Assembly (NCBI RefSeq): GCF_016858305.2
Contig: NZ_CP074436.1
Span: forward strand, 3,740,001 to 3,804,000
Source of the DNA: Polaribacter sp. Q13
GTDB lineage: Bacteria > Bacteroidota > Bacteroidia > Flavobacteriales > Flavobacteriaceae
DNA length: 64,000 bases
Direction: 5' to 3'
The notes under the pieces were generated by a model. That model did no database searches. It was not told the DNA's origin and saw only the letters and a program-made list of their open reading frames with translations. The position numbers and the translations under genes are program-made. Below are positions 21,720-58,486 of the stretch, one piece after another (the stretch's first letter is position 1; the number at the start of each line of letters is the position of its first letter).

Positions 21720-22604
21720 CTAACTTTTTGTTTGTGTCATATTATCGGCAACTACAAGTATATAATTGGCTATCGTATTTTTTTCTTCTTTAGTCATTTT
21801 ACTCCATTCAGATTGAGAAACAGTAGTAATTGATTTTAGTGTTAATCCTGGTTGAATCTTCTGAATCCACCAAATGATACCTTGTTCGTAGTTAGAGTGG
21901 TATGAACCTTCAAAATGAAGTAATAAATCTCCTTTTTTAAAGTTTTTAAGAGAAAAATGAGCCATAGTAGCGTCTTTTGCAGCTTGTGCCGTTTGTATAT
22001 TTAACATGTTTGGTGGCACGTGTCCTCCCATTTTATCAGCCATTTCTGCATACGCTTTTACGGTAGGGTCAAAATATTTTTCTAAATCTGGGCCAATTAA
22101 AGCAAGAGCTTCCGGACTTAATTCTTTTAAAGCATCCATTCCTTTTTTATTAAACATAGCGGCATATCTTCTAGGAATATTTGTAGCAATAAATCGAAGA
22201 TTATTGGTTTTTGCAAATTCAACCAAAGGTCTGTAATCAGTTTGGTAATTACCCCACATTTGTGTCATTTCAGGAATCATTTTACTTTCTGGGTACAATC
22301 CAGATAAATATTCATTTAAAACCAATTGATTTCCGCTTTCTAACATTTCAGCTCCAAAGAATAATGAGTCTTTTTTAATGTTAAACAAACTTTTACTCAC
22401 TTCTAATTGCATCCAATGTGCAATAGGATTGTAATGATATTCGCCAAAAAACACCATATCGCTATCAGCAAGATCTTTAATCATTTTGTTATAATTAGCA
22501 GTCTTTCCATTATTTTTAAATAATTGATAGGCAGGTTTATTTTGTGCTTTGGTGGTGCTTATTAAGGATATTAATAAAAGGGTTGTAAGTAATAAATATT
22601 TCAT
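21720..22604 (-). CDS. ChaN family protein (haem-binding type lipoprotein relative)
   Basis: This 294-residue exported protein has a signal peptide (1-20, ending TTKAQ) and no clear lipobox. The body matches the ChaN/DUF399 family: MVFFGEYHYNPIAHWMQLEV (about 50-69), a FFGAEMLESGNQ segment, and LLLHFEGSYHSNYEQGIIWWI near 227-247. ChaN of Campylobacter binds stacked haems and is iron-regulated. Here it is convergent with the FecIR/TonB/M16 locus, consistent with an iron or haem theme, but its own regulation is not shown. A TAATTTCG -7-like element lies at 22625-22632 on the minus strand. Confidence 0.8.
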   Translation of the reverse strand: MKYLLLTTLLLISLISTTKAQNKPAYQLFKNNGKTANYNKMIKDLADSDMVFFGEYHYNPIAHWMQLEVSKSLFNIKKDSLFFGAEMLESGNQLVLNEYLSGLYPESKMIPEMTQMWGNYQTDYRPLVEFAKTNNLRFIATNIPRRYAAMFNKKGMDALKELSPEALALIGPDLEKYFDPTVKAYAEMADKMGGHVPPNMLNIQTAQAAKDATMAHFSLKNFKKGDLLLHFEGSYHSNYEQGIIWWIQKIQPGLTLKSITTVSQSEWSKMTKEEKNTIANYILVVADNMTQTKS

Positions 22605-22936: not shown

Positions 22937-23311
22937 CTAAGAACAATCTTTACAAGTTCCGGTTAAAACGCAATTTACGTTTTCAACCAAATAATTCTCC
23001 GGAACTGAAAAATTAACTTCACCTGGCAAACATTCTATGGTATCACATTTTAAACATCTAAAATGAAAGTGGTGCACTGTTTTATGTTCTTTATCGCAAT
23101 CTAAACATAATGCAAAATACTGTTTACCGTCTTCTGCAACCACTTTATGTAAAATTCCATCATCGCAAAAACGATTCAATACGCGGTAAATGGTAGCCCT
23201 GTTGATGTCAATATTTATTTTCTTTTCAATTGCATCCTGACTCATTGCTTTTCCTGTTTTTGTTAATACATTTAAAACAGCTTCTTTTGTAGGAGTACTT
23301 CTTCTTTTCAT
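22937..23311 (-). CDS. Fur family transcriptional regulator, probably Zur
   Basis: This 124-residue repressor has a winged-helix DNA-binding half (1-67, with INRATIYRVLNRFCDDGILHK) and a metal-binding dimerisation half. The structural zinc site is C86/C89 (CLKC) with C120/C123 (CKDC), and the sensory region is His-rich (HKTVHHFHFRC, about 76-86). ATG 23311 is preferred to an in-frame TTG upstream because the latter lies inside an operator. It is divergent from a MerC/ZnuD-like/FolE/COG0523 set, a gene content typical of zinc-starvation regulons, so zinc sensing (Zur) is more likely than iron sensing. Three copies of an operator-like motif lie in the shared promoter region. Confidence 0.85.
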   Translation of the reverse strand: MKRRSTPTKEAVLNVLTKTGKAMSQDAIEKKINIDINRATIYRVLNRFCDDGILHKVVAEDGKQYFALCLDCDKEHKTVHHFHFRCLKCDTIECLPGEVNFSVPENYLVENVNCVLTGTCKDCS

Positions 23312-23315
23312 CTTG

Positions 23316-23408
23316 ATGCGATCTATTTGCAATAATTAATGCGATTCTATTGCAATATTATAAAAAATATAATATGTTTGCAAACTTGTAATGCGACTTT
23401 GTTGCTTT
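23316..23408. promoter_or_regulatory. Three-copy operator array of the Fur/Zur-type regulator
   Basis: An 18-bp motif occurs three times in the same direction, at 23316-23333, 23339-23356 and 23391-23408, all beginning ATGCGA and with TTGC near the end. Each is an imperfect dyad; the middle copy is TGCGAT-TCT-ATTGCA with 5 of 6 pairs. Copy 1 abuts the regulator start codon, copy 2 covers the -33 box of the divergent promoter, and copy 3 lies just after its RNA start. Spacings are 23 and 52 bp. A separate dyad (ATATTATA / TATAATAT) sits between copies 2 and 3. This layout suggests repression of both directions by one regulator. Confidence 0.65.
23350..23380 (+). promoter_or_regulatory. Promoter of the zinc island operon
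   Basis: TTG at 23350-23352, a 20-nt spacer and a perfect TATGTTTG at 23373-23380 match the Bacteroidota promoter. RNA would start about 23385, giving an 80-nt leader to the first MerC gene. Operator copy 2 overlaps the -33 box. Confidence 0.65.
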
Positions 23409-23465
23409 AACAGGTAATCTTGTAATGTTTTATTAATGACTGCAAGTACTATAAAATAGAATTAA

Positions 23466-23852
23466 ATGAAAATTAAAAACAATACCATAGATATTATTGC
23501 GCTTTCAAGCTCCTTAATTTGTGCAGTGCATTGTGCAGCAATACCATTAATTCTTTCATTTTCATCTTTAAGTAGTCTGCATTTTTTAGGGAATAAATAT
23601 ATTGAAGGTACGTTTATTAGTTTCGGACTTTTTTTTATTTTAATTTCTTTGTGGCCAAGTTATATAAAGACACATCAAAATGTAAAACCTTTGGTCTATG
23701 CTATTTTTGGGTTTCTATTTGTAGTTTTAGGGAGACTTAATTTATCGGAGCTTTTTGAGGTTATAAATACAGTTATCGGAGCTTCTTTAATTGCTTTTGC
23801 TCATTATACCAATTGGAAATTATTGAAGAGTAAGAAATGCTATAAGCATTAA
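23466..23852 (+). CDS. MerC domain-containing membrane protein
   Basis: This 128-residue protein has about four membrane helices and the MerC metal motif C19-x2-H22-C23 (ICAVHCAA) in helix 1. MerC proteins were first described as mercury carriers, but in flavobacteria small MerC proteins occur in metal-uptake clusters without mer genes. Here it is the first gene of the zinc island, reading away from the Fur/Zur regulator, so a role in moving or sensing zinc at the inner membrane is inferred. The C-terminal tail ends KKCYKH, another possible ligand set. Confidence 0.8.
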   Translation: MKIKNNTIDIIALSSSLICAVHCAAIPLILSFSSLSSLHFLGNKYIEGTFISFGLFFILISLWPSYIKTHQNVKPLVYAIFGFLFVVLGRLNLSELFEVINTVIGASLIAFAHYTNWKLLKSKKCYKH

Positions 23853-23903
23853 GTTAATTTTAATAAAATAGTTATCTCGTTTTTTAGATTTTTTAATAGA
23901 TTA

Positions 23904-24212
23904 ATGAAGCTAAGTCGCCATAAAAATAATATTACATACCTGTTTCTTGTACTTTTTCTATCGATGAAAATGGCAGGGCTTCATGTGTTGTCTCATACAG
24001 ATGATAAAGAACATGCAGCGTATTGTCTTATATGTGATCATGCGATTGTACATAATTTAACGCCAACACTTGCGCCAGGTTTTAGTGATCTTGAAATTAA
24101 AAATATTGATTTTTTTATTCAGCAAGAAATAGTAATAAACTACAGAAGTGTTATTTTTAATAATGCAATTCCTAGAGAACTTTTTTCTCGACCTCCTCCC
24201 TTTATGGTATAA
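23904..24212 (+). CDS. Small Cys/His-rich exported protein (unknown)
   Basis: This 102-residue protein is not assigned to a named family. It has an N-terminal hydrophobic segment (about 11-28), then a dense set of possible metal ligands: HVLSHTDDKEHAAYCLICDH (about 27-46) with a CxxC pair flanked by histidines. The C-terminus ends LFSRPPPFMV. Short proteins of this design are often found just ahead of TonB receptors in flavobacteria. It lies between MerC and the ZnuD-like receptor and may hold or present metal in the periplasm. Confidence 0.7.
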   Translation: MKLSRHKNNITYLFLVLFLSMKMAGLHVLSHTDDKEHAAYCLICDHAIVHNLTPTLAPGFSDLEIKNIDFFIQQEIVINYRSVIFNNAIPRELFSRPPPFMV

Positions 24213-24286
24213 GTTTTCTATACATTTTATTACTAACTATTTTAAAAGAGTTAACGCGCTTTTTATAATTTTTTTTGGATGATGTT

Positions 24287-24301
24287 ATATAATCATTATC
24301 A
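24287..24301. promoter_or_regulatory. Fur-box-like sequence upstream of the TonB receptor
   Basis: ATATAATCATTATCA matches the 7-1-7 Fur inverted repeat (TGATAAT-n-ATTATCA) at 12 of 14 positions. It lies 166 bp ahead of the receptor start, in a 254-bp gap with no gene. It differs from the operator array at 23316-23408, so it would need a different Fur-family member. Confidence 0.35.
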
Positions 24302-24466
24302 AAGAAAGGGTATAACTAGCATTATTTTTCTTAGCTGTAATTTTAGTAAACTATTTATTTTAAGGTTGATAAAGTTCCTAGATTTTATCCTTAAAATATA
24401 GCGGTGTATAGATTTTGTGATGGTTCTATTTTAAGAGCATTTTTTCAAATCTTATAGTATACTATT

Positions 24467-26836
24467 ATGTTTAAAAATATATTGAGTATCTGGCTATCTT
24501 TTAGCCTGTGCTCTATTGCGTTTGCGCAAGATTCTTATCAAATAAAAGGATCTGTGTTAAATTCCAAGACTTTACAACCTATAGAAGGTGCTAATATTAT
24601 TGGCGAAAATCTATTTTCAATTTCATCAGAAACAGGTGAGTTCAGCATCAATAATGTAGACCAAGGAACGTATACTTTTAAAATATCTCATGTTGGTTTT
24701 GATGCCGAAACTGTCACGGTACAAGTTAAATCTGCGAAAATTTCAATTCCTGTTTATTTAAAAGAATCTTCTACACTGCTAGAAGAAATTAAAGTGTTGG
24801 GCAAGTCTAAAGGAAGAAAAAATAAAGAAATTTCGTTTGTTTCTCAGACGGTTTCTAAAGAGTTTCTCAATAATAATAGAGAAAATAGTTTGATGCAGAC
24901 TTTGAGTAAAATACCTGGAGTTAGCACTATTAATATTGGCTCCGGACAATCGAAACCCGTTATTAGAGGTTTAGGATTTAACAGAGTTGCTGTAGTGCAA
25001 AACGGCATAAAGCACGAAGCGCAACAATGGGGAAACGATCATGGTTTAGAAATTGATCAGCAAGGAATAGAAAATATACAAATTATAAAAGGTCCGGCCT
25101 CGTTGTTGTATGGTTCTGATGCAATTGCAGGTGTTGTAGATATTCAACCCAATAAAATTCCGTTAGAAAATACTTTTAAAGGGGAAGTCAATATTTTAGG
25201 AGAAACCAATAATGATTTAGTAGGAATTTCTACGGGAGTTGAATCTAGAAAAGAGCATTGGTTTTATCGCGCACGATTAACCTATAGAGATTATGGAGAT
25301 TACAAAGTGCCTACGGATAAAATTAATTATGAAAATTACATTTTTGATTTACATGACAATAATTTAAGAAACACTGCTGGTAACGAGGCAAATGCAAGTG
25401 TAAGTGTTGGTTTTATTGATGATAAAATTACATCGGAAACTGTATTTAGTAATGTAAATGCAAAAAACGGATTTTTTGCAAATGCGCATGGTTTAGAAGT
25501 AAGAACTTCTAGTATTGATTATGATGCTTCTAGTAGAGATATCGATTTACCTTTTCATAAAGTAAATCACTTTAAAATTACCAATAATACGACTTTAAAG
25601 AAAGATAATTCTACGTTGCATTTCGATTTTGGTTATCAAAATAATCATAGAGAAGAACATTCAGAACCTGTTCCGCATGGTTATATGCCAAAACCGTCGG
25701 ATACAAAAGAACGTGTATTTCATAAAAACACTTACTCATTTAATGTAAGAGATGTATTTAAACCTAACAATCAACACAATATGGTTGTTGGATTAAATAT
25801 GGAATATCAAGATAATAATATTGATGGTTGGGGATTTTTAATTCCAGAATACAATCGTTTTACAGCGGGTGTATTTGGATACGATCAATTTGAAATTAAT
25901 AATAATTTACACGTTTTAGCAGGTGTGCGTTATGATTACGGATTGTTAGATACCAAAACGTATAAAGATTGGTTTCCATCAACCGTCAAAAATAACGATG
26001 GATCTACATCTTCTGTTTTTTTACAAAGGGCGAAAGATAAAGTGTTGAATTTTGGAAATTTAAGCGCTTCTTTGGGTTTGAGTTATATCAACAATAACAC
26101 AACGTATAAAGTAAATGTAGGTAGAAGTTTTAGAATGCCTTTGGCAAATGAGTTGGCTTCTGATGGAGTGAACTATCACATGTATCGTTATGAAAGAGGA
26201 AACTTAGATTTAGACCCAGAAATATCATATCAATTAGATTTGGATATAGATCATACTACAAAATGGTTTAGTGTAGGTGTGAGTCCGTTTGTAAACTTTT
26301 TTGACAATTATATTTATTTAAATCCGACTTCTAATTATTACGAAACCTTACAAATTTATGAATACACCCAAGCCAAGGTTTTTAGAATAGGAGGAGAGTT
26401 TAGAGCAAATGCCACCCTTAATAAAAACTTGCAAGTAGATGCTTCTGTAGAGTATGTGTATTCTAGACAAACAAGCGGACCAAAAGAAGGATTTACTTTG
26501 CCTTTTTCACCGCCATTATCGGGGTTATTATCTGCCAATTATCAATTTAAAGAACTGTTATTTTTTAAAAAGCCGCAATTAGTGGCAGATTATAGAATAA
26601 CTGCATCTCAAGAAGAAATTGTTCCTCCGGAAGAAAAAACGGCAGGTTATCAAGTCTTAAATATGTCTTTTTCATCAGAAATAAATGTGTTTAAAAAGGA
26701 GACTCCCATAGAAATGCGTGTAAAACTGAATAACGTATTTAATACCAAATATTACAATCACACCAGTTTTTACCGATTGATAGATGTGCCAGAAGCTGGT
26801 AGGAATCTATCGTTATCCCTAACCATACCTTTTTAA
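24467..26836 (+). CDS. TonB-dependent receptor, ZnuD-like (probable zinc importer)
   Basis: This 789-residue outer-membrane receptor has a signal peptide (1-20, ending IAFAQ), a carboxypeptidase-regulatory-like domain (24-100) and a plug (about 125-235). The plug contains KPVIRGLGFNRVAVVQNGIK and QWGNDHGLEIDQQGIENI, a wording typical of ZnuD-type receptors. A surface loop near 392-405 is rich in His and acidic residues (NNHREEHSEPVPH). The barrel ends LSLTIPF. Placement beside a Zur-like regulator, MerC, DUF4625 and COG0523 genes supports zinc import. No STN domain is present, so it is not a sigma transducer. Confidence 0.85.
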   Translation: MFKNILSIWLSFSLCSIAFAQDSYQIKGSVLNSKTLQPIEGANIIGENLFSISSETGEFSINNVDQGTYTFKISHVGFDAETVTVQVKSAKISIPVYLKESSTLLEEIKVLGKSKGRKNKEISFVSQTVSKEFLNNNRENSLMQTLSKIPGVSTINIGSGQSKPVIRGLGFNRVAVVQNGIKHEAQQWGNDHGLEIDQQGIENIQIIKGPASLLYGSDAIAGVVDIQPNKIPLENTFKGEVNILGETNNDLVGISTGVESRKEHWFYRARLTYRDYGDYKVPTDKINYENYIFDLHDNNLRNTAGNEANASVSVGFIDDKITSETVFSNVNAKNGFFANAHGLEVRTSSIDYDASSRDIDLPFHKVNHFKITNNTTLKKDNSTLHFDFGYQNNHREEHSEPVPHGYMPKPSDTKERVFHKNTYSFNVRDVFKPNNQHNMVVGLNMEYQDNNIDGWGFLIPEYNRFTAGVFGYDQFEINNNLHVLAGVRYDYGLLDTKTYKDWFPSTVKNNDGSTSSVFLQRAKDKVLNFGNLSASLGLSYINNNTTYKVNVGRSFRMPLANELASDGVNYHMYRYERGNLDLDPEISYQLDLDIDHTTKWFSVGVSPFVNFFDNYIYLNPTSNYYETLQIYEYTQAKVFRIGGEFRANATLNKNLQVDASVEYVYSRQTSGPKEGFTLPFSPPLSGLLSANYQFKELLFFKKPQLVADYRITASQEEIVPPEEKTAGYQVLNMSFSSEINVFKKETPIEMRVKLNNVFNTKYYNHTSFYRLIDVPEAGRNLSLSLTIPF

Positions 26837-26949
26837 AATTTATCGAAAAATCATTAATCAATTATCGGTTATCAATTAACAATGTTCAATAAATAATAAT
26901 CAATTAAAATTAATCAATAATCAATAATCAACAAGTAAAATTAAAACAA
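26837..26949 (+). repeat. Short AATCAAT-type repeats in the receptor-DUF4625 spacer
   Basis: The spacer holds several imperfect copies of ATCAATTA/AATCAATAATC in tandem, including AATCAATAATCAATAATCAA. It is low-complexity DNA without a hairpin terminator, so the DUF4625 genes are probably read through from the receptor. Confidence 0.55.
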
Positions 26950-27735
26950 ATGAAAACAAACAGTATGAAATCAAATTTAAAATTTTTAGCAATTATTGCT
27001 TTTGTCGGAATTACTTTACAATCATGTAGTAGTGATGAAAACCTCGAATTAAATGCCCCAATTATTTCAAATTTTGAGTACGGAAAAGGTAGTGATCATA
27101 CCACAGATCAAGTAGCTTACAAAGGATCAGACATTCATTTAGAAGGCGAAATTAACGCAGAAGCCATTGTAAGCAGTATTACGCTTTCTATTCACGCGCA
27201 CGATTTAACTCCTGGAGACGGAGAAGTAGCGTGGGGTTTTGAACAAGTATTTACTGATGCTAAATATTTAGCAATCAATCCTACTTTTCATGAGCATATA
27301 GATGTTCCTGCTAATGCGCCGGCAGGAGAATATCATGTAGAGCTTACAGTTACTGATGAACAAGGAAACAGCACAGAAGTAGAAGGACATATTCAAATTT
27401 TAGATGTTATTACTTTAAGTGAAATTTCTATTGATACTACTGTCGCCAGAGGCGATGATTTTCATGCAGAATTTAAGATTGATGCTGTAAATGGTATTCA
27501 TAGTATTTCTGTGGATGCTCAAGCACACGGACTAACTGTTGGGGCTGGAGAGGTAGAATGGGATTTTGAACAAGAATTTTTAGGGAAATACCATGAGCAA
27601 ACTTCTATTGAATTTCATGAGCATATAGATGTTCCTGCAACTGCTCCTGTTGGCGAGTATCATATCATTTTTACAGTAAAAGATGAAGATGGAAATACCA
27701 AAGAGTATGAAACTCATATAGATATTACTGCTTAA
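26950..27735 (+). CDS. DUF4625 lipoprotein with two His-rich repeats
   Basis: This 261-residue lipoprotein (lipobox LQSC, Cys about 26) has two tandem DUF4625 beta-sandwich units, about 37-145 and 147-260. The repeats share the pattern LxxxAHxLTxGxGEVxWxFEQ, later FHEHIDVPAxAPxGEYH. Each unit carries six or more histidines at matching places (HAHDLTPG, FHEHIDVP, GEYH; then AQAHGLTVG, EFHEHIDVP, GEYH), a strong sign of metal binding. It is likely to face the periplasm or surface and to pass zinc to the ZnuD-like receptor. ATG 26965 is an alternative start. The family has no proven function. Confidence 0.8.
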   Translation: MKTNSMKSNLKFLAIIAFVGITLQSCSSDENLELNAPIISNFEYGKGSDHTTDQVAYKGSDIHLEGEINAEAIVSSITLSIHAHDLTPGDGEVAWGFEQVFTDAKYLAINPTFHEHIDVPANAPAGEYHVELTVTDEQGNSTEVEGHIQILDVITLSEISIDTTVARGDDFHAEFKIDAVNGIHSISVDAQAHGLTVGAGEVEWDFEQEFLGKYHEQTSIEFHEHIDVPATAPVGEYHIIFTVKDEDGNTKEYETHIDITA

Positions 27736-27791
27736 TTAAATAAAAATTTACCGCATAGTATTTATACTGTACGGTTTTAAATCGAATTACC

Positions 27792-28271
27792 ATGAAATTT
27801 AGATTAAAACATTTTTATATTTTATCATTTATAATACTAATTTCTTCTTGTTCTAGTGATAATAGTATTGATAAAGATGAAGAAAAACCAACCATAAGCA
27901 TTAATTATAACGAAGGATTTCCGCAAGGTTGTGCCGTATTAAAAAGAGGAGAAACCTATAGTTTTAGAGCTAAAGTTACAGATAATAAGGCATTGGCTGC
28001 TTATAGCATCGATATTCACCATAATTTTGACCATCATACACATGATGACCAAGTAGCTGAATGTAATTTAGAAGATATAAAACAAGCTATAAATCCATTC
28101 ATATTTATAGAAAACTATTCTATAGACGAAGAGGTAACTAGTTATGAAATTAATATTGCTATTACAATTCCAAATGATATAGATACTGGAGATTATCATT
28201 GTGCATATTCTGTAACGGATAAAACTGGTTGGCAGTCTAGAACTTCTGTAGATATAAAGATTGAGGAATAG
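27792..28271 (+). CDS. Second DUF4625 lipoprotein, single unit
   Basis: This 159-residue lipoprotein (lipobox ISSC, Cys about 19) has one DUF4625 unit. A compact His cluster (IDIHHNFDHHTHDDQ, about 76-90) stands where the preceding gene has its HAHDLTPG element, and GDYHCAYSV sits near the end. The changes are consistent with a different metal-site geometry. It starts 56 bp after the first DUF4625 gene in the same direction and shares the context of the zinc island. The function is inferred from ligands and neighbours only. Confidence 0.75.
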   Translation: MKFRLKHFYILSFIILISSCSSDNSIDKDEEKPTISINYNEGFPQGCAVLKRGETYSFRAKVTDNKALAAYSIDIHHNFDHHTHDDQVAECNLEDIKQAINPFIFIENYSIDEEVTSYEINIAITIPNDIDTGDYHCAYSVTDKTGWQSRTSVDIKIEE

Positions 28272-28316
28272 TGTTGGAACTTAGATAAACGTAAGGATAT
28301 AAAATTATTATTAAAT

Positions 28317-28727
28317 ATGACATTTACAAATCAAAAAGCAGATCATATAGGTGCTATAGCTAGTTCACTTTGTTTGATTCATTGTGTTGCAACACCTTTT
28401 ATATTTATTGCACAAAGTAGTGTTCTTGCTTGTTGTAGCACAACAACTGCACCTAGTTGGTGGAAATTTATAGACTATTTTTTCTTAGTCATTTCATTTT
28501 TAGCTATTTATCGTTCCACAGAAACCACCGCAAATAATTGGATGAAACCTTCTTTGTGGTTTAGTTGGTTGCTGCTTTTTGTAGTGATTATTAATGAAAA
28601 AATAGCATTGCTTTCTATACCAGAAAGCGCAATTTATATACCGGCAATTGCCCTGATTATTTTACATACATATAATAGAAAATATTGCCAATGTAAAACC
28701 GATAAATGTTGTAGTCATGAAAAATAA
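28317..28727 (+). CDS. Second MerC domain-containing membrane protein
   Basis: This 136-residue protein has four predicted helices with the MerC motif C19-x2-H22-C23 (LCLIHCVATP), at the same residue numbers as the first MerC of the island. It differs in having a Cys pair in the loop (LACCSTTT) and a cytosolic-type tail with many ligands (KYCQCKTDKCCSHEK). Its end overlaps the folE start by 11 bp, so the two are translationally coupled. A metal-transfer role at the inner membrane is inferred. Confidence 0.8.
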   Translation: MTFTNQKADHIGAIASSLCLIHCVATPFIFIAQSSVLACCSTTTAPSWWKFIDYFFLVISFLAIYRSTETTANNWMKPSLWFSWLLLFVVIINEKIALLSIPESAIYIPAIALIILHTYNRKYCQCKTDKCCSHEK

Positions 28728-29382
28728 AAAACAAATAGAAATCGTAGGAGATAATCATTTTTCAACGAGTATAAAAACGCCTTTACGTGCAGATGCTTTT
28801 GATAAAAGTGACGATGAGAAAATAGAAAACATTCAGTATCATTTTAAAAAGATCATGGAAGAAATGGGGTTAGATTTAACTGATGATAGTTTGTCTGGCA
28901 CTCCGTATCGCGTTGCAAAAATGTATGTAAAGGAGTTGTTTTATGGATTAAACCCTATAAATAAACCTAGGTTATCCACTTTTGAAAACAAATATGGGTA
29001 TAAAAAAATGCTGGTAGAACAAAATATTACCATAGATTCTGCTTGCGAACATCACTTTTTGCCAATAATAGGGTATGCAAATGTGGCGTATATTCCTAAA
29101 GACAAAGTAATAGGTTTGTCTAAAATAAATCGATTGGTAGATTATTATGCCCGTCGTCCGCAAGTGCAAGAAAGGCTTGTGCTTCAAATTTTAAACGACT
29201 TACAAACTATTTTAGAAACCAAAGATGTAATTGTTTCTGTTACTGCAAAGCACCTTTGCGTTTCTTCTAGAGGGATTAAAGATCAAAGTAGTTTTACAAC
29301 CACTTTAGAGTATGGAGGTTGTTTTGAAGAAGCTGAAACTCGTAATGAATTCTTAAAGATCATCGCTCAAGAGAAAATATAA
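28717..29382 (+). CDS. folE: GTP cyclohydrolase I (type IA)
   Basis: This 221-residue enzyme converts GTP to dihydroneopterin triphosphate, the first step of folate/pterin synthesis. The fold is typical: LSGTPYRVAKMYVKELFYGL (60-79), the zinc ligands C110 and H113 (DSACEHHFLP) and C181 (AKHLCVSSRG), and the ARRPQVQERL dimer motif. All zinc ligands are kept, so it is not the metal-flexible type IB. Extra folE copies are known in Zur regulons next to COG0523 genes. Whether another folE exists in this genome cannot be seen from the window. Confidence 0.92.
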   Translation: MKNKKQIEIVGDNHFSTSIKTPLRADAFDKSDDEKIENIQYHFKKIMEEMGLDLTDDSLSGTPYRVAKMYVKELFYGLNPINKPRLSTFENKYGYKKMLVEQNITIDSACEHHFLPIIGYANVAYIPKDKVIGLSKINRLVDYYARRPQVQERLVLQILNDLQTILETKDVIVSVTAKHLCVSSRGIKDQSSFTTTLEYGGCFEEAETRNEFLKIIAQEKI

Positions 29383-29481
29383 TTTAGGGCATTTTTCGAA
29401 TGAATGTTGTAAGGTTTTATTGATAAAATGAATACATTAAATCTACTAAAAGCATAAATTAGCACAAGCATTTTTTACAAT

Positions 29482-30387
29482 ATGGAAGCAATTATTACCA
29501 TTGTCGGTTTTTTAGGATCAGGGAAAACTACCTTGTTAAATTATTTAATAGATCGTTTTACAGAAAAAAAATGGAATCCTTTTGTCATTTTAAATGATTA
29601 TGAAAATGCCAATATGGATGTGCAGCAGTTTCTAGAAAAAGTAGATAACAAATATCTAAAAGCGCTTACCGGAAGTTGTATCTGTTGCAGTGGTATACAT
29701 GAACTTAGAAATTATGTAAACGGAATTCCTGTTAGAAAAAACGGAATTACCTTAATTGAAGCCAACGGAACATCAGATGCTTGTTCGCTTATGGAGTTTT
29801 TAGGAGTAGGTGTAAATGATCGATTTTTACCACCGATACAAATCTCTGTGGTAGATGTACAAAATTGGCAAAAACGAGGAGAACATAATGAATTAGAAGC
29901 GAATCAAATACAAGTTTCCTCTTTAATTGTGCTGACTCATCTTAATGGAGCTTCAGAAAATAGAACAGCATTGGTGGTTAAAGATTTAAAAAAGCACAAC
30001 CCTTTTGCTAAAATCATTACCATGGATGCGCTAGACGTTGAGTTGTTACCCATTCTTTTACCTTCTAAAAATGTGGTCGATAAATTAGCGCATCAAAAAG
30101 CACATTGGTCTTCCTGTTCTATAGATTTACCTGTTTTACCATCTAAAGATTGTATAGATTTTATTTGTAAACAATTACCTAAAAGTATACTTAGGGTTAA
30201 AGGTTGTGTGCAAATAGCTAAAGAAGCAAATTATACTTATTTTGAAAGAACTCCAGACGGAAAAGTATTTGTAAGACCTTTTAAAGGCGTACCAATTACA
30301 GGAACTAAATTACTAACTATTGGTGCTGGTAGTGAACCCGCTGTTTTAGAAAAAGTGATTGCATACAGCCTTAAAGCTCATAATTAA
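29482..30387 (+). CDS. COG0523 (CobW/P47K family) GTPase, divergent
   Basis: This 301-residue protein is a member of the metallochaperone GTPase family. The P-loop is GFLGSGKTT (9-17) and the metal-binding CxCC motif is C66-I-C68-C69 in TGSCICCSG. The Walker B/switch region reads LIEANGTSDA instead of the usual ETSG form, and the NKxD base-recognition motif is replaced by THLN (IVLTHLNGAS), which is unusual. A short CobW C-terminal domain follows. In zinc islands these proteins are thought to deliver zinc to target enzymes; the gene just upstream, folE, is an obvious candidate client. Confidence 0.82.
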   Translation: MEAIITIVGFLGSGKTTLLNYLIDRFTEKKWNPFVILNDYENANMDVQQFLEKVDNKYLKALTGSCICCSGIHELRNYVNGIPVRKNGITLIEANGTSDACSLMEFLGVGVNDRFLPPIQISVVDVQNWQKRGEHNELEANQIQVSSLIVLTHLNGASENRTALVVKDLKKHNPFAKIITMDALDVELLPILLPSKNVVDKLAHQKAHWSSCSIDLPVLPSKDCIDFICKQLPKSILRVKGCVQIAKEANYTYFERTPDGKVFVRPFKGVPITGTKLLTIGAGSEPAVLEKVIAYSLKAHN

Positions 30388-30432
30388 TTACGATAATTTA
30401 GATAAATAACCCATTCAAAATATAAAATAATA

Positions 30433-30525
30433 ATGATAAAAGGAATAAAAAAATTACCAGTAACTGTTTTAAGTGGATTTTTAGGAGCTGGTAAAACTAC
30501 ATTGTTAAATCATTGTGGTGTTTAA
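30433..30525 (+). pseudogene. Truncated COG0523 GTPase gene
   Basis: A 30-residue frame begins with [19 protein letters not shown], a perfect COG0523 N-terminus, reaches LLNH and then ends abruptly with CGV and a stop. The rest of the gene, about 350 codons, is absent; the next feature is the terminator and 3' end of a tRNA-Arg gene. It looks like the surviving 5' end of a second, full-length COG0523 gene after a deletion or rearrangement. Confidence 0.75.
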
Positions 30526-30602: not shown

Positions 30603-30679
30603 TGGTGACCATGGCTGGATTCAAACCAGCAACCTCTTGAGCCGTAATCAAGTGCGCTATTCAGTTGCGCCACATGGCC
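30603..30679 (-). tRNA. tRNA-Arg (anticodon ACG)
   Basis: The reverse complement folds as a cloverleaf: acceptor GGCCATG / CATGGTC (one G-U), D stem GCGC/GCGC, anticodon stem CTTGA/TCAAG with loop TTACGGC, and T stem GCTGG/CCAGC. The anticodon ACG reads CGU-type Arg codons. CCA is encoded. It borders the truncated COG0523 gene. Confidence 0.93.
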
Positions 30680-57148: not shown

Positions 57149-58486
57149 ATGTTTAAAAAAATATTAATTGCCAATAGAGGAGAAATAGCACTTCGTGTTA
57201 TTAGAACCTGTAAAGAAATGGGCATTAAAACTGTTGCAGTATATTCTACTGCAGATGCAGAAAGTTTACATGTAAGGTTTGCTGATGAAGCAGTTTGTAT
57301 TGGTCCAGCACCAAGTTCAGAATCTTACTTAAAAATGTCTAATATTATTGCTGCTGCAGAAATAACGAATGCAGATGCAATTCACCCAGGTTACGGATTT
57401 TTATCTGAGAATGCTAAATTTTCTAAATTATGTGAAGAGCATAATATTAAATTTATTGGAGCAACAGGAGATATGATTGATCAAATGGGAGATAAAGCAA
57501 ACGCTAAATCTACTATGATTGCTGCAGGTGTACCTTGTGTTCCAGGAAGTGAAGGTGTTATTGAAACCTTTGAAGATTGTGAAAAAATAGCTATTGAAAC
57601 CGGGTATCCCGTAATGCTAAAAGCTTCTGCAGGAGGTGGAGGTAAAGGAATGCGTGCTGTTTGGAAAGCCGATGAATTAAGAGATGCTTGGGATGCTGCA
57701 AGATATGAATCTAAAGCAGCTTTTGGTAATGATGATATGTATATGGAGAAGCTTATTGAAGAGCCAAGACATATAGAAATTCAGATTGTTGGAGATTCTT
57801 ACGGAAAAGCATGTCATTTATCAGAAAGAGACTGTTCTGTTCAACGTCGTCATCAAAAATTGACAGAAGAAACTCCTTCTCCTTTTATGACGGATGCATT
57901 AAGAAAGAAAATGGGTGCTGCAGCTGTTAAAGCGGCAGAATTTATTAAGTATGAAGGTGCCGGAACCGTAGAATTTCTTGTTGATAAACATAGAAATTTC
58001 TTCTTTATGGAGATGAATACTCGTATACAAGTAGAGCATCCTATTACAGAAGAAGTAGTAAATTACGATTTAATTAGAGAACAGATTTTAGTGGCTGCAG
58101 GTGTGCCAATTTCAGGGAAAAATTACTTCCCTCAAATGCACTCTATAGAATGCAGAATTAACGCAGAGGATCCTTATAATAATTTTAGACCAGCTCCAGG
58201 AAAAATTACAACATTCCATTCTCCAGGAGGGCATGGAGTAAGAGTAGATACACATGTATATGCAGGGTATATGATTCCGCCAAATTACGATTCTATGATT
58301 GCTAAATTAATTACTACTGCTCAAACAAGAGAAGAAGCAATTAATAAAATGAAGCGTGCTTTAGATGAATTTGTAATAGAAGGCGTTAAAACAACAATTC
58401 CTTTTCATAGACAATTAATGGATCATCCAGATTATGTTGCCGGAAACTATACAACTAAGTTTATGGAAGATTTTGTAATGAAATAA
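57149..58486 (+). CDS. accC: Acetyl-CoA carboxylase biotin carboxylase subunit
   Basis: This 445-residue ATP-grasp enzyme carboxylates the biotin of AccB. Motifs include [20 protein letters not shown] at 6-25, the Gly-rich ATP loop [10 protein letters not shown] (about 160-169), [19 protein letters not shown] (about 288-306) and [16 protein letters not shown] metal/substrate residues. Length is normal. It ends the fatty-acid unit and is followed by a terminator. Confidence 0.96.

Follow-up and report, generated by a model that had tools for sequence, protein, structure and literature searches.

A probable accessory zinc-starvation island, with MerC and DUF4625 genes behind a candidate Zur-type operator, in Polaribacter sp. 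Q13

Introduction

Which metal is served by the nine intact genes at positions 22937-30387 of the 64,000-nucleotide stretch of the Polaribacter sp. Q13 genome analysed here (contig NZ_CP074436.1, positions 3,740,001 to 3,804,000; hereafter the window), and does a single repressor govern them all? A first-pass annotation, made from the letters, had described a divergent Fur-family repressor facing a run of genes for MerC, a small Cys/His protein, a ZnuD-like TonB-dependent receptor, two DUF4625 lipoproteins, a second MerC, FolE and a COG0523 GTPase, and had read the whole as one zinc route from the outer membrane to the cytosol. All nine genes were found in that order and orientation (open reading frame [ORF] list and Pfam scan). 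We find the block real, conserved and accessory, and consider it probable that it is a zinc-starvation island, a judgement based on comparison of protein families, a Zur-type Cys, a palindromic box, gene order, the sharing of that box by MerC, FolE and COG0523 genes, and a receptor closest to ZnuD.

The regulator and its candidate operator

The regulator gene lies on the minus strand at 22937-23311 and encodes 124 residues from its likely ATG. The listed ORF begins with TTG and extends to 23332; the start is probably the ATG at 23311-23309 (residue 8 of that ORF), because related proteins begin there and box 1, described below, then falls just upstream. The product scored 43.3 bits against the FUR model PF01475 (cut-off 23.1), and H62, C76, C79, H88, H90, C93, C96, C101, C127 and C130 were invariant in an alignment of 18 rows. 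The repressor with two structural Cys pairs that had been described is thereby upheld (C93/C96 and C127/C130), and C79 and C101 are additional conserved cysteines. At the sensing site, C76 aligns with a Cys in the solved Zurs 3mwm and 2o03 and with a Ser in the Fur 2w57; such a Cys presumably binds the sensed zinc in Zur. We grouped the regulator with the Zurs and not with Fur because this aligned Cys separates them where the profile scores tie, and a Zur-type assignment appears well supported by comparison. Close relatives are sparse, being present in 24 of 249 family genomes at E < 1e-30, that of Q13 included. The Q13 genome has one other Fur-family gene, with a stronger FUR match (83.7 bits).

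The divergent promoter between the regulator gene and merC1 contains three copies of the palindrome TGCRAYNNNRTYGCA with no more than one mismatch. Box 1 (TGCGATCTATTTGCA, 23317-23331, one mismatch) is conserved upstream of related regulators, box 2 (TGCGATTCTATTGCA, 23340-23354) is exact, and box 3 (TGCGACTTTGTTGCT, 23392-23406) has one mismatch; none is assigned a strand. The −7 consensus of Bacteroidetes is TAnnTTTG. Its sole plus-strand occurrence in 23311-23470, TATGTTTG at 23373-23380, is a −7-like element for merC1 and sits between boxes 2 and 3. On the minus strand, the −7-like element TAATATTG at 23353-23360, which may belong to the regulator promoter, overlaps box 2. This placement of the −7-like elements at and between the boxes is what one would expect if a repressor acted on both promoters. 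Matches with up to two mismatches were not in excess in the 64-kb window (18 observed versus 18.5 expected); at one mismatch or fewer, three boxes lay within 90 bp between the regulator gene and merC1, versus two elsewhere in the window. The complete genome has three exact boxes, box 2 among them.

The same box recurs beside related regulators. In a sample of 46 regulator starts (44 distinct sequences, the window's own included), it was detected with at most one mismatch within 300 bp upstream of 42 starts (40 of the 44 distinct), and in exact form upstream of 32 (31 of the 44). No box was found within 300 bp upstream of the regulators at loci L026, L033, L036 and L039; for regulators of less than 40% identity it was present in three of six. 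We conclude that the box is probably a conserved operator of this regulator, and it is new here.

The box in related genomes

A survey of MerC genes that was blind to the regulator gave PF03203 matches over the cut-off at 104 places in 99 of 397 family genomes. All 104 places were examined, and since one (L314) was not recognised by the profile, 103 MerC genes were counted. Upstream of 62 of these lay a box with no more than one mismatch (44 exact), compared with 25 of 531 ORFs without a tag, each at least 100 amino acids long, in the same stretches (13 exact; Fisher p 8e-38). A Zur-type gene lay within 4 kb of 52 MerC genes and a FolE gene within 4 kb of 36, and 29 were without a tagged neighbour; these counts are lower bounds, because some stretches end at contig ends or at 1.5-kb flanks. 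Regulators of the MerC2-FolE type have the same box. MerC therefore emerges from this comparison as a candidate recurrent box-linked gene, which is new here. At L193, L206 and L272, MerC is divergent from an ABC ATPase gene (identified by Pfam scan at L206) across a box, with permease-like and Fur-like genes downstream of the pair.

The stricter box TGCAACNNNGTTGCA was counted in 68 genomes chosen because they had a hit to the regulator or to DUF4625; it occurred 64 times, versus 7 for the reversed pattern, and was present in 40 of the 68 genomes, whereas the Q13 genome has none. Forty stretches with a box were then fetched, 30 with a site judged to lie away from the known regulator and ten with a site beside it. 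A tagged gene (Zur, MerC, FolE, COG0523 or TonB receptor) started beside the exact site in all ten of the latter and in 11 of the 30, the gene in these 11 being MerC, FolE, COG0523 or Zur; a TonB receptor gene with a box directly upstream was seen once, at L221. A zinc-starvation setting for folE, the COG0523 gene and the ZnuD-like receptor seems well supported by comparison.

Gene content of the block

Pfam cut-offs were exceeded in the block for FUR, for MerC and DUF4625 (two proteins each), for the Plug and barrel domains of the receptor, and for GTP_cyclohydroI and cobW. The genes facing the regulator are on the plus strand. MerC1 (23466-23852), an inner-membrane protein of the MerC family, and MerC2 (28317-28727) scored 73.3 and 72.4 bits against PF03203 (cut-off 27.6) and are 25% identical; C19, H22, C23, E95 and H113 are common to both and to 11 other MerC proteins, and the CxxHC motif is invariant. 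Between merC1 and the receptor gene lies HP102 (23904-24212), encoding a small Cys/His protein of 102 amino acids with a C-terminal SRPPP. H27, H31, C41, C44 and SRPPP were invariant in 21 rows; HP102 matched no Pfam family, and none of the 21 relatives did so convincingly. A box stands directly before HP102 at L100, L117, L125, L136 and L137. Some DUF4625-linked receptor genes (L132-L134) are immediately preceded by sequence that encodes RAPP ends resembling SRPPP.

The ZnuD-like TonB receptor of the first-pass annotation (24467-26836) was confirmed, with Plug and barrel over the Pfam cut-off and ZnuD (4rdr, 83.2 bits) as the best match among solved structures, followed by the copper receptor OprC (38.6 bits). 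The ZnuD model NF038289 was also the best of the NCBIfam models at 159.6 bits, and we call the receptor only ZnuD-like because this is below the curated cut-off of 950. The heme-receptor model TIGR01785 gave 132.7 bits. At its N-terminus the receptor has a CarboxypepD_reg-like domain. At L099 (10783-13143), the receptor gene is split into three frames.

Two DUF4625 genes follow, at 26950-27735 and 27792-28271, whose products scored 189.4 and 152.7 bits against PF15418 (cut-off 27). Both had been called His-rich DUF4625 lipoproteins; the family assignment stands, and the description is corrected to two domains with 16 His in 261 residues for the first and one domain with 7 His in 159 residues for the second. 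An AlphaFold2 model of the one-domain protein (predicted local distance difference test score 87.6) has an immunoglobulin-like (Ig-like) fold. H76, H82, H84, D85, D86 and H136 were invariant in 46 rows, and it is plausible that these His and Asp residues form a metal site. The lipobox Cys is followed by a Ser/Asp-rich start (CSSDD in 21 of 46 relatives, CSSDN in the window), similar to, not identical with, the SDDFE from +2 that the available part of PMC5080379 gives as the surface-export consensus of F. johnsoniae. The DUF4625 proteins are likely surface lipoproteins paired with the receptor, an assignment that is new here.

A second survey, also blind to the regulator, detected DUF4625 in 53 of the 397 genomes, from which 56 stretches were fetched; they leave out weak places in genomes G380, G297, G121, G374 and G038 and two contig-edge places of G041, and L135 had no hit by profile. 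A receptor gene lay within 4 kb on the same strand in 45 of the 56, HP102 was present in 36, a Zur-type gene in 18, and a box before HP102 or the receptor gene in 7; 25 had any zinc marker. MerC was found in 29 of the 53 DUF4625 genomes versus 70 of the 344 others (p 6e-7). The receptor-DUF4625 pair is the stable core, with a strong zinc link in fewer than half of its occurrences. The view that DUF4625 and MerC are the least studied parts of the block found support: DUF4625 was named in no paper of the open-access literature searched, and, in the portions of that literature covered, no report was found of MerC in Zur regulons or in Zur-linked zinc uptake.

The folE gene (28717-29382), which overlaps merC2 by 11 bp, encodes a type IA GTP cyclohydrolase I (NF006824, 273.2 bits; cut-off 202) and is the genome's second copy, the other lying at genome positions 57370-57900. 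It keeps the CEHH and HLC motifs, which we take to be zinc ligands, and a zinc-free FolE2 substitute is ruled out, the enzyme being of the zinc-dependent type. According to the available text of Haas et al. (PMC2770081), some Zur-linked paralogs retain zinc sites. The extra FolE may add capacity, because the island copy is a zinc-type enzyme. At L122 (10946-13170), the folE sequence is present as two partial ORFs, one on each strand, flanking a Zur-MerC pair, as if split by inversion.

The last intact gene (29482-30387) encodes a COG0523 GTPase of 301 amino acids (PF02492, 85.1 bits), a putative metallochaperone with GFLGSGKT and CICC motifs. The ZigA model NF038288 gave 46.7 bits against a cut-off of 600, which places the protein only in the wider COG0523/cobW family; a search of its own genome with this protein matched only itself. 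The block had first been drawn to 30525. Its nine genes end at 30387, and the remainder takes in a feature absent from that description, a 5′ fragment of a ZigA-type COG0523 gene (30433-30525, plus strand; 30 codons, then a stop) with 82-100% identity to the N-termini of full-length genes at L033, L034, L040 and L047. It probably remains from an island gene since lost, because L040 and L047 carry the full-length gene within the same block.

Accessory nature of the block

A gene for tRNA-Arg (acg; 30603-30679, minus strand) marks the edge of the block. The genus-mate G131 has the same tRNA-Arg, DUF2007-like gene and exchanger, with one 515-amino-acid gene in place of about 20 kb that include the block, and neither of the two sampled genus-mates has DUF4625. 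A Zur-MerC-FolE module occurs elsewhere in G320 (L280). An att repeat was looked for and none was found. By this comparison the block is accessory, gained or lost. The genes of window positions 10500-30600 (sigma factor, FecR-like and M16 peptidase genes, together with the zinc block) are all absent beside tRNA-Arg in G131. A ChaN-like heme-binding gene adjoins the block at 21720-22604.

Discussion

These comparisons are consistent with the following scheme. When zinc is sufficient, a Zur-type dimer would occupy the palindromes at 23317, 23340 and 23392 and shut its own promoter and the divergent merC1 promoter; when zinc is low, the regulator would be released and the block expressed, perhaps as one transcript. 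Surface DUF4625 lipoproteins would capture zinc, as such or in a complex, and hand it on to the ZnuD-like receptor, HP102 would assist in the periplasm, and MerC1 and MerC2 would bring zinc through the inner membrane. The COG0523 GTPase would deliver it to needy enzymes, and the extra FolE would sustain folate synthesis.

Several findings weigh against so simple a picture. The regulator's profile scores tie, with one Fur at 38.7 bits and two Zurs at 37.4 and 36.2. In the window no box precedes the receptor gene or merC2, so that the boxes of the block stand at its first promoter only, which counts against the original view of the whole block as one unit. No zinc marker was present in 31 of the 56 DUF4625 stretches. 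At 19 of the 30 box stretches away from a regulator, no tagged gene adjoined the exact box; among them are sites within ORFs, sites preceding TrxR-like oxidoreductase genes (L208, L209) and sites preceding DUF6660 genes that adjoin RND pump genes. Either control by the box could extend to efflux, or the DUF6660/RND sites may be chance. Loss of ABC-3 permeases did not track with MerC or DUF4625 among the 397 genomes. Finally, a TrxR-like flavin adenine dinucleotide (FAD) oxidoreductase gene lies near the regulator gene at 32 of 45 loci (L011-L055); the regulator type therefore also serves something besides uptake, and its oldest partner may be redox. Of the first reading, then, the Zur-type regulator and the zinc setting stand, and the single route was not borne out, given the boxes at the first promoter only and the DUF4625 stretches without a zinc marker.

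The position of the boxes would also fit an arrangement in which only merC1-HP102 is Zur-controlled, the receptor gene, the DUF4625 pair and merC2-folE-COG0523 being separate transcripts joined by rearrangement, and the receptor pair may then serve another ligand. The 254-bp gap before the receptor gene and the 26 of 45 receptor-DUF4625 pairs without zinc markers point the same way. We nevertheless think this unlikely: the regulator, merC1, HP102, receptor and DUF4625 genes are kept together in several genera, TAnnTTTG was found in none of the six gaps inside the block, and at five loci a box stands directly before HP102. Recurrence of the gene order in other genera, for which a search of flavobacterial genomes had been proposed, argues that the block is more than chance.

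As to the signal, a response to copper or another thiol-loving metal is suggested by the invariant C79 and C101, by a family named for mercury, by OprC as the second solved match, and by boxes at L192, L200 and L205 that precede DUF6660 genes neighbouring an RND pump gene. ZnuD scores well above OprC, however, the box is common to MerC, FolE and COG0523 genes, and no mer reductase was found among the ten proteins scanned, which makes this quite improbable. The DUF6660 arrangement was also seen at L191 (the DUF6660 gene was scanned at L192, the RND pump gene at L191). CxxC pairs are able to sense oxidation, and the regulator has such pairs; a redox-sensing regulator with the oxidoreductase as its main partner, joined later by zinc genes under the same box, would explain the 32 loci, several with an S-adenosylmethionine methyltransferase. 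We regard it as very unlikely, since no oxidoreductase gene stands beside the regulator gene in the window or at the island loci L041, L045, L048 and L049, and MerC2-FolE type regulators use the same box. The oxidoreductase (CPYCHGYE motif in L040) often occurs with an 80-odd-residue protein and a TPMT-like methyltransferase, at the box-bearing promoter, and makes up with them another set of partners of this regulator. We hardly expect the block to be an island for iron or heme controlled by a Fur-like repressor. In favour of this, the regulator gives similar scores with Fur and Zur models and structures, TIGR01785 matches the receptor and a ChaN-like gene adjoins the block; the Zur-type Cys, the higher score of ZnuD over heme receptors, the folE and COG0523 partners and the stronger FUR match elsewhere in the genome speak against it.

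Within the preferred reading, a zinc-starvation island, inner-membrane transport by MerC is possible, and a ZIP transporter could do this work instead; the genome has one ZIP gene, with no box in its 3.5 kb. It has no strong ABC-3 permease, only a weak match (E 3.4e-4), and strong ones occur in 149 of the 397 genomes. A more specific proposal, made tentatively and with more doubt than confidence, is a ZnuABC-free flavobacterial zinc import in which DUF4625 surface lipoproteins are BtuG-like zinc catchers serving a ZnuD-like receptor, CxxHC MerC proteins are Zur-controlled inner-membrane importers, and a Cys-rich Zur reads TGCRAYNNNRTYGCA. The analysis proposes a function that can be tested for DUF4625, and likewise for MerC beyond mercury resistance, supplies a concrete candidate zinc-starvation operator for this bacterial family, and may explain how a genome lacking a strong ABC-3 permease scavenges zinc.

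The system would be known in kind, as a zinc-starvation response, and new in composition and operator. The Zur regulons of Proteobacteria, Firmicutes and others, as described in the available parts of PMC6103462 and PMC2770081, likewise place TonB receptor, folE-type and COG0523 genes under a Fur-family zinc repressor; they differ from the present block in its box, its MerC and DUF4625 genes, and its FolE, which is of the zinc type where those regulons have FolE2. PMC6103462 contains neither of the words Bacteroid and Flavobacter, and PMC2770081 neither Bacteroidetes nor Flavobacter. Mercury-resistance MerC resembles the proteins here in exceeding the Pfam MerC cut-off, and differs in that these have zinc-type neighbours, a Zur-type box and an invariant CxxHC. 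Neisseria ZnuD (4rdr) is the best solved match and best NCBIfam model for the receptor, which departs from it in its score below the cut-off, its CarboxypepD_reg-like N-terminal domain and its DUF4625 pairing. BtuB-BtuG and SusCD of Bacteroidetes (available part of PMC6143338) share the placement of a TonB receptor gene beside a lipoprotein gene, here with an export-signal-like N-terminus; BtuG is a B12-binding beta-propeller whereas DUF4625 is Ig-like. The likeness is one of working, a lipoprotein that would catch a ligand for its receptor.

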